A stretch of DNA of 64,000 nucleotides from Armatimonadota bacterium (GTDB lineage Bacteria > Armatimonadota > Fimbriimonadia > Fimbriimonadales > Fimbriimonadaceae): assembly GCA_020161505.1 (NCBI GenBank), contig JAIUNY010000001.1, positions 1-64,000 of the forward strand. The letters are read 5' to 3'. Below, piece by piece: positions 6,890-11,741 of the stretch. A program made the position numbers and the translations under genes. Positions within the stretch are counted from its first letter, which is position 1. Every line of letters starts with the position of its first letter. The notes beneath the pieces were generated by a model. It had not been told where the DNA came from. It ran no database searches and was given only the letters and a program-made list of their open reading frames with translations.

Positions 6890-7984
6890 TTACGAGCGAC
6901 CGAGCTGTTGTCCGGCTGACGTAAGGGTGACTCGCTGGTCGTTTTCCTTGAGGAGACCGCGTCGCGAGGCTTCCTCGACGACATCACGCGTCCATTGGGG
7001 AGTCCATCCGAGTTCGCGGATGAGGTGGCTGAGCAGTGATTCTTCGGCCTCTCGGCTCGTGTTCGCATGAAGGGAGAGGTGGATCACCAGGGCTTCGATC
7101 GCGTGGTTCAGCTTGGTGGTCCGTTGGGCTTGGGCTTGCCAGAGGACTCCTCGTCTGGGTGCGGTGAGACTTGCGCTGACGAAGGCGATCCCCAGTACCG
7201 TCGCGATGAGCCCACTGATGCTGACATCGAAGAGCACCGCGAGCGCGGTGCCCAGCACGCTTGATCCGACCCCCACTGCAGCGGAGAGCTTGAGCATCTG
7301 TGGATAGGAGTCGGTGTAGAGCCGGGCAATGGCCGCGGGTGCGACGAGAAGCGCCACCGCGAGCACCGCTCCGATGGCGGTGAAGGCGGCGACACTCGTG
7401 ATGCTCACAATCGCCATGAGGCTGAAATGGAGAAGATCGGGGTTGAACCCGGAAAGCTTGGCGAGCGAGGGATCAAACGTGGCAAGGCGGAGTTCTTTGC
7501 CGAGGATCCTGAGGAAGAGGGCGGTGAGGCCGAAGGCAACTCCGAGCAGCCAGATTGATTGCGGGCCAAGATTGAGATTCCCGATCCGCCACGCATCAAA
7601 CGGGGCGAGAGTGAGATCTCCAAACAGGACGGCGTCGGTGTCGAGGTGGATGTTTCCGTAGCTGGCGGAAATCCAGAGCACGCCCAGGGCGAACATGGTC
7701 GGGAAGACGAGGCCGATGGCGGCGTCCTGCTTGATGCCCCGGGATCGGGAGAGGGTCTCGACGGCGAGAACAGTAAGGAGCCCGGCGAGTACGGCTCCGA
7801 CAAACGCCGGGCCGAGAGAGGGGCCTCCGGCGAGCAGGAATCCGGCAACTAGCCCGGGCAGAACGCTGTGGCTGATCGCATCGGCGAGCATGGCAATGCG
7901 CCGCAGAACCAGGAAAACTCCCGCGAGTGCACACGTGAGCCCGGCGAGAGCCGCGATCAGGAAGACCAGGGTCAGTGGGCTCAA
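6890..7984 (-). CDS. Metal ABC transporter permease with C-terminal winged-helix domain
   Basis: The 364-residue protein is an ABC-3 family permease for Mn, Zn or Fe(II). Residues 1-275 form the membrane domain, with the usual features LADAISHSVLPGLV near 33 and a Gly/Ala-rich end. The last 80 or so residues are soluble and read like a winged helix-turn-helix: a leucine-rich helix, LGWTPQWTRDVVEEASRRGL, then VTLTSAGQQL. This resembles the DNA-binding half of DtxR/MntR repressors, which are known fusions in some ABC-3 permeases. Its start overlaps the second permease by 4 bases (ATGA type). Confidence 0.85.
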   Translation of the reverse strand: MSPLTLVFLIAALAGLTCALAGVFLVLRRIAMLADAISHSVLPGLVAGFLLAGGPSLGPAFVGAVLAGLLTVLAVETLSRSRGIKQDAAIGLVFPTMFALGVLWISASYGNIHLDTDAVLFGDLTLAPFDAWRIGNLNLGPQSIWLLGVAFGLTALFLRILGKELRLATFDPSLAKLSGFNPDLLHFSLMAIVSITSVAAFTAIGAVLAVALLVAPAAIARLYTDSYPQMLKLSAAVGVGSSVLGTALAVLFDVSISGLIATVLGIAFVSASLTAPRRGVLWQAQAQRTTKLNHAIEALVIHLSLHANTSREAEESLLSHLIRELGWTPQWTRDVVEEASRRGLLKENDQRVTLTSAGQQLGRS

Positions 7985-8865: not shown

Positions 8866-8950
8866 GCGACCTCCCTCTTGGCTTGAGACTCGGCACCGGA
8901 TGTCTGTAGGGTCGGGAAGGGGTTTGCTCTGGATCTAAGTTGGGTGGTTT

Positions 8951-9465
8951 GCGGCCCCTCCCGGCCTTTGGCCACCCTCCCCGAGGCAAGCTCGGAGAGG
9001 GCGTCGATTGAGGGTTTGTCGTGGCCTTTTGGGGTTCGCCTTGAGCGAGGGGTCGGGATGGGTGATGCTTTGGACTCGGGTTGTGTAGTGTGCGGCCCCT
9101 CCCGGCCTTCGGCCACCCTCCCCGAGGCAAGCTCGGAGAGGGCGTCGATTGGGACTAGGTGGTTCCCGACCCTGAAGGGATCGGGGCACCTACTCTGGGG
9201 AAGCACTTCGGGCTGACCGAGGTGGGAGTTGGATGAACCAACCCTCAAATCTCGCCCTCCACCAACTCCCGTTGGGGGAGGGTGGCCGAAGGCCGGGTGG
9301 GGGCATTCCGAATCCTCGCAGAGGATTCGGGGGCCGCAGGCCCGTCCAAAGCGGGCGGTGTTCAGGCTCGACTGGTCTAACGCCCAGCCGAGTACGGTTT
9401 CCCCCTCCCGCCCCGTTGGGGCACCCTCCCCCAAGTCGGAGATTTTGGGGAGGGCGTCGATTGGG
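8951..9465. repeat. GC-rich repeat cluster (family A) in the 688-bp gap 8866-9553
   Basis: The gap holds no convincing gene. Two near-identical 60-bp copies (8951-9010 and 9092-9151, one visible mismatch) begin GCGGCCCCTCCCGG and end AGGGCGTCGATTG. Each contains two small palindromes, CCGGCCTTTGGCC-like and CGAGGCAAGCTCG. A part-copy lies inverted near 9272-9302, and a diverged copy near 9401-9465 keeps CACCCTCCCC and GGGGAGGGCGTCGATTGG. Every frame through it gives only Pro/Arg-rich nonsense. It looks like an accumulated dispersed repeat, split by family B copies. Confidence 0.8.
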
Positions 9466-9502
9466 AGTTGGGAGATCCCGACCCTGAAGGGATCGGGGCA
9501 CC
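9164..9502. repeat. Family B repeat, two copies (9164-9190, 9476-9502)
   Basis: Two identical 27-bp units starting TCCCGACCCTGAAGGGATC and ending GGGGCACC lie 312 bp apart, each just after a family A copy. The core CCGACCCTGAAGGGATCGG is itself an imperfect palindrome able to form a hairpin. The fixed A-then-B order suggests that a composite unit was duplicated. Confidence 0.75.
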
Positions 9503-9553
9503 CAGATGCTTTTGCCTCCCGACTCATGAGGGGAGAGGCGCAATCGCGGCGGG

Positions 9554-11198: not shown

Positions 11199-11260
11199 TT
11201 ATCCAAGGCTACAAAAGTTAGCCAAGGCTAATTTTAGGCGTTCCCGACAAGCTGGAGCAA
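11199..11260 (-). promoter_or_regulatory. Promoter and tandem DtxR/MntR-like operator of the metal importer
   Basis: Reading the minus strand, -35 TTGCTC (11255-11260), an 18-nt spacer and -10 TAAAAT (11231-11236) precede TTAGCCTTGGCTAA (11218-11231), an inverted repeat with perfect 6-bp arms. A second, imperfect copy of the same pattern lies at 11199-11212, centred 19 bp further on. The palindrome covers the expected transcription start, as expected of a repressor site. TTAGCC/GGCTAA arms resemble DtxR/MntR-family boxes (TTAGG-CCTAA type) rather than Zur. No regulator gene is seen in the window. Confidence 0.6.
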
Positions 11261-11372: not shown

Positions 11373-11741
11373 TTAGTGGCCTTCGCCTTCCTTGTGGTCG
11401 TGGCCTTCGTGGGAATCGCCAGCAGCCTTGTCGCCGGTGGTAGCACCAGTAACGGCTTCGCCGGTCTTTGCCGCAGCGTCGCCCACAGCTTCGCCGGTCT
11501 TGGCAGCCGCATCGCCGACGGCTTCGCCAGTCTTCGCAGCAGCGTCGCCCACAGCTTCGCCCGTCTTTTCAGCAGCGTCGCCGACAGCAGCGCCTGCATC
11601 ATCAGCAGCACCCTTCACTGCGTCGGTGGTTGCAGCTGCGCCTTCTTCAGTCGCCGTAGCTGCTTCTTGGCAGCCAACGAGGGCGAACGAACCCATCAGG
11701 GCAGCCAGAGCCGCCAGAAGGAAGAACTTGTTGGTCTTCAT
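11373..11741 (-). CDS. Repeat lipoprotein with His-rich tail
   Basis: The 122-residue lipoprotein has signal MKTNKFFLLAALAALMGS and lipobox ALVGC near residue 24. The centre is four to five tandem 11-residue units of the form GDAAAKTGEAV, predicted to be amphipathic helix as in LEA and apolipoprotein-like proteins. The end is HEGHDHKEGEGH, with four His and several acidic residues, a likely metal-binding tail. The gene lies directly upstream of the metal importer on the same strand, with a 176-bp gap, suggesting a surface metal buffer. No family recognised; the metal role is inference. Confidence 0.75.
   Translation of the reverse strand: MKTNKFFLLAALAALMGSFALVGCQEAATATEEGAAATTDAVKGAADDAGAAVGDAAEKTGEAVGDAAAKTGEAVGDAAAKTGEAVGDAAAKTGEAVTGATTGDKAAGDSHEGHDHKEGEGH

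Follow-up and report, generated by a model that had tools for sequence, protein, structure and literature searches.

A metal ABC permease of an Armatimonadota bacterium with a half-length DtxR/MntR-type tail that was probably kept as an accessory domain of the transporter

The window, meaning the whole stretch of 64,000 nucleotides that was analyzed, carries a metal transport operon on the minus strand, with genes in the order binding protein (11196-10291), ATPase (10294-9554), permease 1 (8865-7981) and permease 2 (7984-6890). The first gene encodes a metal-binding substrate-binding protein of the ZnuA family (ZnuA, E 9.4e-73 in Pfam), the second an ABC ATPase (ABC_tran, E 5.8e-28 in Pfam). 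Permease 1 is an ABC-3 protein without a tail, as read from its open reading frame and Pfam. Permease 2 has 364 aa and, in the reading of the open reading frame, a TTG start that overlaps the permease 1 stop; its ABC-3 membrane domain (PF00950, aa 7-273, E 3.6e-48 in Pfam) is followed by a C-terminal tail. With ABC-3 permease, ZnuA-type binding protein and ATPase in one operon, the product is best explained, judging from these domain assignments, as a manganese/iron/zinc-type ABC importer. Assignment to a single metal was attempted and dropped. All NCBIfam models of Mn and Zn importers scored below cut-off and disagreed with each other, the ATPase being closest to Mn and Mn/Fe importer ATPases, whereas the binding protein and permease 2 scored highest with zinc Azt models. 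Manganese is suggested mainly by the MntR repressor described below. The ATPase and permease 1 genes are separated by a segment of about 650 bases (8900-9545) that consists of repeats and inverted repeats and whose pieces have 71 matches in the genome, self included; in G004, G001 and other relatives the two genes abut or overlap. Just upstream of the operon and on the same strand, a small lipoprotein-like gene (11373-11741) with Ala/Gly-rich repeats and a His-rich end was read from the sequence as possibly metal-binding.

The tail of permease 2 comprises aa 276-364 (89 residues; 6893..7159, minus strand). An earlier note on this DNA had placed it at 6890-7210, an interval that contains the tail plus the last part of the membrane domain, and had likened the final 80 or so residues to the half of a DtxR/MntR repressor that binds DNA. 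Pfam gave no significant match on the tail. Structure prediction (AlphaFold2, single sequence, mean pLDDT 74) yielded the order helix-helix-helix-strand-strand-helix, a winged helix as the note had expected. When a profile of 15 tails was compared with PDB sequences, 17 of the 18 matches at E<=10 belonged to the DtxR/IdeR family; these were mostly variants of few proteins and individually weak (E 0.26-1.1), and they were in register across the helix-turn-helix and the wing. Profile-profile comparison by hhalign connected the 15 short tails with six longer DtxR tails on permeases of G066, G093 and G136 (96.3% over 91 columns) and the latter with stand-alone DtxR/MntR proteins (99.1%). The direct comparison of short tails and stand-alone proteins gave 85-90%, and 200 column-shuffled controls of the two comparisons that involve the short tails reached 2.5% at most. 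The chain from short to long tails and from long tails to stand-alone repressors thus points to a DtxR-family repressor reduced to its first half. In structure comparison the top chain for the tail model was E. coli MntR (2h09; Z 9.4, rmsd 3.0, 80 residues aligned), other winged helices lay within 1 Z of it, and Foldseek returned nothing at E<=0.001; hence, the family assignment stands on the sequence profiles. Together, profiles and model confirm the likeness seen in the earlier note, and the tail is assigned as a predicted winged helix of DtxR/MntR descent.

The metal-binding and dimerization domain of such repressors (PF02742) was searched for in the tail and had no match (E<=1), the winged helix being the last part of the protein. 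The same Pfam search detected PF02742 in the long-tailed relatives. No two-domain MntR or DtxR match was obtained for the tail at the Pfam and NCBIfam cut-offs. The long-tailed permeases (G066, G093, G136 and G214; loci L109, L106, L108 and L107) share the linker and the winged helix with permease 2, but differ in having a tail on each permease of the pair and in that all five proteins scanned (from G066, G093 and G136) contain PF02742; PF01325 was not found by Pfam in the same five. A stand-alone DtxR gene was seen at or near the long-tailed operon in G066 and G136. An ancestor with such a longer tail may have lost the metal-binding and dimerization domain. A model of the whole permease 2 (AlphaFold2, three sequences) had a mean pLDDT of 44 and was left unused. 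As to orientation, basic stretches mark the cytoplasmic side of membrane proteins (the positive-inside rule), and in each of 23 tails Lys/Arg account for 3-7, and Asp/Glu for 0-2, of the first 20 alignment columns past the membrane domain. The tail would therefore lie in the cytoplasm.

The fusion recurs in relatives, where the earlier note had suggested looking for it. Permease matches were found in 19 of 61 genomes (its own and 60 relatives) and in 47 of 201 genomes of the phylum, part of them running through to the end of the tail. The tail profile detected 30 of 291 phylum genomes, 24 with permease tails and six (G077, G102, G111, G128, G135 and G148) with another protein, to which we return below. 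Outside the phylum, tails of similar length occur, again on the downstream permease, in three plasmid operons of Deinococcus (D. deserti and D. peraridilitoris) and on a plasmid of Paracoccus aestuarii. A metal-dependent regulator gene is annotated beside two of the three Deinococcus operons, with no regulator annotated near the third. A scan of genome contigs with the single protein brought up one locus, from Domibacillus, in which the permease has no tail of this kind.

Within the phylum, six residues of the tail are invariant: L299, H302, H306, E315, H320 and W327, which would form a face of helices 1-2 and the following turn (7004..7090, minus strand). The resulting motif, L-x2-H-x3-H...E-x4-H...W, was present in 23/23 tails from six families, although identity to the tail in the window is only 26-40% (alignment of 15). 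Eight of the 23 played no part in first spotting the motif; the 23 are not independent of each other, G010/G261 being identical and G005/G006 nearly so, and a 24th tail (G163) was omitted since its match is divided by a stop. The equivalents of the recognition helix (6962..7000, minus strand; model helix 54-66, aa 329-341) and of the wing (6923..6952, minus strand; model strands 70-73 and 76-79, aa 345-354) are poorly conserved. For the 18 genomes that encode both a tail and MntR, the mean pairwise identity of helices 1-2 was 0.51 in the tail vs 0.60 in MntR, while the values were 0.25 vs 0.62 for the recognition helix and 0.28 vs 0.56 for the wing. By this measure of pairwise identity, the tail has no conserved DNA-reading recognition helix. 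The LT..G end of the wing is lost in the tails of G004, G005 and G006. Some recognition helices are still basic (net charge +2 or +3 in 7/23 tails), and charge does not cleanly separate tails from MntR.

Substitution rates show the same distribution. Between G005 and G006, dN of the tail was 0.000 in helices 1-2 vs 0.116 in recognition helix plus wing, and between G263 and G264 the values were 0.055 vs 0.671; G010/G261 had no change in either part. In G021/G272, G000/G001 and G000/G004 divergence of both parts is high, if lower in helices 1-2, and dS is near or beyond saturation, as in all pairs except the two closest. In these two, dN/dS of the tail was 0.11 and 0.02. In each of the five pairs that allowed both to be calculated, the membrane part had a lower dN/dS than the tail. 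The tail is thus kept by purifying selection, which is strongest on helices 1-2 with the face formed by H302, H306, E315, H320 and W327. We considered whether the tail is a decaying remnant without function. The second DtxR domain is gone and the recognition helix and wing are weakly constrained; in G008 (L101:5845-6896) permease 2 and tail lie in different reading frames, which may reflect a frameshift, an assembly error or decay, and the G163 match is split as mentioned. Against this, the tail frame is open in 22 of the 24 genomes (in G171 and G238 the remaining gene is cut by a contig end), and low dN/dS as well as six residues invariant in six families make loss of function very improbable.

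Another explanation, that of a membrane-tethered repressor sensing its own transport substrate, had been put forward as a possibility in the earlier note, together with the observation that no stand-alone regulator is near. For the window this observation is correct, PF01325 having no match in the 64 kb. It fails for the genome (3.14 Mb, 99.94% complete), in which a stand-alone, two-domain MntR of 145 aa is encoded at C6:243055-243489, on the same contig and 232 kb from permease 2; it (L001) scored 189.9 bits against an NCBIfam equivalog cut-off of 153. A separate MntR gene, which the note itself had named, jointly with missing DNA-contact residues, as an argument against its proposal, therefore exists. 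The MntR query matched 20 of the 24 tail-bearing genomes, distantly in G191 (38%) and G171 (31%). Among tail-bearing genomes of at least 90% completeness and at most 5% contamination a match was present in 18/18, two of them distant. The four genomes without a match are 80-87% complete; another PF01325 match at E<=1e-4 was found in G076 and G163, and none in G192 and G196. In 3 of 14 short-tail regions (G032, G021 and G046) MntR is encoded next to the binding-protein gene, in the opposite orientation, and in G171 a distant DtxR-like gene is located directly upstream of the binding-protein gene.

The DtxR-like operator that the earlier note saw at the operon proved to be a real MntR-type site. 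Just upstream of the binding-protein gene, 11199..11231 holds two copies 19 bp apart. In the 3.14-Mb genome, TTAGCCWWGGCTAA is matched exactly at one place, by the copy TTAGCCAAGGCTAA at 11218-11231; the neighboring copy at 11199-11212 is imperfect, with 2 mismatches. We called an operator sharp if a site close to where the binding-protein gene starts had 9 or all 10 of the fixed bases. Of 21 tail-bearing operons in which this gene start is readable, 13 had such an operator, the window included; in the stretches used from G076, G163 and G238 the start is unreadable. A scan of the remainder of these loci gave an expectation of 0.012 per region, and such a site turned up in 0.4-0.5% of shuffled regions. 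Since the operator is present and MntR genes stand beside the operon in relatives, the stand-alone MntR would most likely be the repressor acting at 11199-11231.

How far the operator tells which protein reads it was judged from its distribution. Sharp operators occurred in 13 of 17 operons with a tail and a close MntR (12/16 without the window, from which the consensus was derived) and in none of four with a tail and no or only a distant MntR (Fisher p 0.012, uncorrected for descent). They were also absent from all six operons of family members with MntR but no permease-2 tail (0/6 vs 13/17, Fisher p 0.002), one of which, in G206, has an MntR match with two stops. At the lower threshold of 8 of 10 bases, sites were found in 4/6 of the tail-less operons, as also in 9% of shuffled regions, and the contrast was no longer clear (15/17 vs 4/6, Fisher p 0.27). 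The six were drawn from eight tail-less operons, with G045 excluded because the stretch has no binding-protein gene, and G051, in which the MntR match is 35% and one 8-of-10 site lies at -144. In three of the six (L180, L110 and L111 from G009, G024 and G036) it is permease 1, and not permease 2, that is extended at the C-terminus; the extension is winged-helix-like by eye in G024 and G036. The attempt to prove from the operator that it is read by MntR rather than by the tail consequently succeeded only in part, the 0/6 in tail-less MntR operons counting against it. These counts leave tail, operator strength and descent entangled. As sharp operators co-occur with the tail, the latter may retain some DNA contact and a role at the operator.

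For a tail that represses its operon while tethered to the membrane, or after release by proteolysis, there is a precedent in YtgCR of Chlamydia trachomatis, in which the permease YtgC is fused to the DtxR-like repressor YtgR; in PMC5599777 and PMC7755916, YtgR is described as repressing after cleavage from YtgC, and in PMC5599777 as keeping the metal-coordinating DtxR residues. Permease 2 shares this architecture, an ABC permease with a C-terminal DtxR-family extension in a metal importer operon, and the DtxR-type operator and its co-occurrence with the tail among MntR-bearing genomes (13/17 vs 0/6) speak in the same direction. The tail, in contrast, is a winged helix alone and lacks the metal-binding and dimerization domain; its recognition helix and wing drift where those of MntR do not, and a separate MntR gene is present. 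G004, G005 and G006 have kept a perfect palindromic operator, TTAACC-GGTTAA, despite the lost wing signature, and tail-bearing operons without a close MntR have no sharp operator (0/4). Because two defining features of YtgCR, PF02742 and a conserved recognition helix, are missing, we do not class the tail with YtgCR, and we regard the tethered or released repressor as unlikely.

Sequence-specific DNA binding was, by the drift of the recognition helix and wing, presumably lost by the tail. We therefore favor, as the somewhat more probable reading, that the transporter has retained a former repressor half in the cytosol as an accessory or regulatory domain, while the operon is repressed by the stand-alone MntR. 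The cytoplasmic winged helix would have ceased to act as a sequence-specific repressor, for which the conservation data provide support short of proof, and its invariant face would act on the transporter itself. This could happen in two ways. The His/Glu face could bind the imported metal and damp transport at high cytosolic metal, the tail being a built-in sensor for post-translational feedback on import. Invariance of H-x3-H, E and H in 23/23 divergent tails, the minimum of amino-acid change around the motif and the fusion to a metal importer are in accord with this. The motif is short of universal, though, as the three Deinococcus tails lack H-x3-H and that of Paracoccus aestuarii keeps H, H and E with T at the H320 position, and the invariant residues may be structural or touch the ATPase. 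Metal binding is possibly a property of the motif, a guess from residue type, and the sensor remains a tentative reading. Alternatively, the face could dock onto the ATPase, stabilize the complex or protect it from proteolysis, with no metal sensing. FeoC is a winged-helix protein and a partner of the iron transporter FeoB. An interaction of the two is reported in the titles of published studies; the likeness to the tail is one of analogy, FeoC being a separate gene and FeoB another transporter class. The conserved W327 and leucines fit a docking or stability domain, which by itself leaves the invariance of the histidines and the glutamate unexplained, and we hold it to be possible with some reservation. 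Still within the favored reading of an accessory domain, it may be speculated that a captured DNA-binding domain became the importer's own metal sensor, its recognition helix released, a His-His-Glu-His site arisen on the inner helices, the transporter now shut by the domain directly and MntR left with the old task; we consider this sequence of events possible, though less likely than not.

Relative to stand-alone MntR/DtxR proteins, with which it shares the descent of its winged helix, the tail is part of a permease and lacks both the second domain and a conserved recognition helix. Permease-DtxR fusions occur in 11 phyla according to the review PMC5599777, which cites Thompson et al. 2012, and these may include proteins like permease 2. 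In a literature search of titles and abstract beginnings, covering few subscription papers, no permease with a winged-helix-only tail was named. The tail differs from the fusions described by its half length, its drifted DNA-reading part and its invariant face. Starting from Chlamydia, such fusions have been read as sources of repressors. The present case suggests that a fused repressor half can persist after its role in DNA binding has ended, retained for a task at the transporter, and, if the His/Glu face binds metal, it would represent a feedback device for ABC metal importers.

The other protein detected by the tail profile has a different architecture. In G111 (L140:1432-2466) it belongs to the DtxR family and starts with a hydrophobic stretch resembling a single membrane anchor, after which Pfam, applied to the L140 protein, found a winged helix, Fe_dep_repr_C and two FeoA domains; the proteins of G077, G102, G128, G135 and G148 are similar. 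The next frame at L140 is feoB-like by eye. Twin FeoA domains are likewise described for P. gingivalis MntR in PMC4805248. The L140-type protein is thus a candidate for a truly membrane-tethered repressor.
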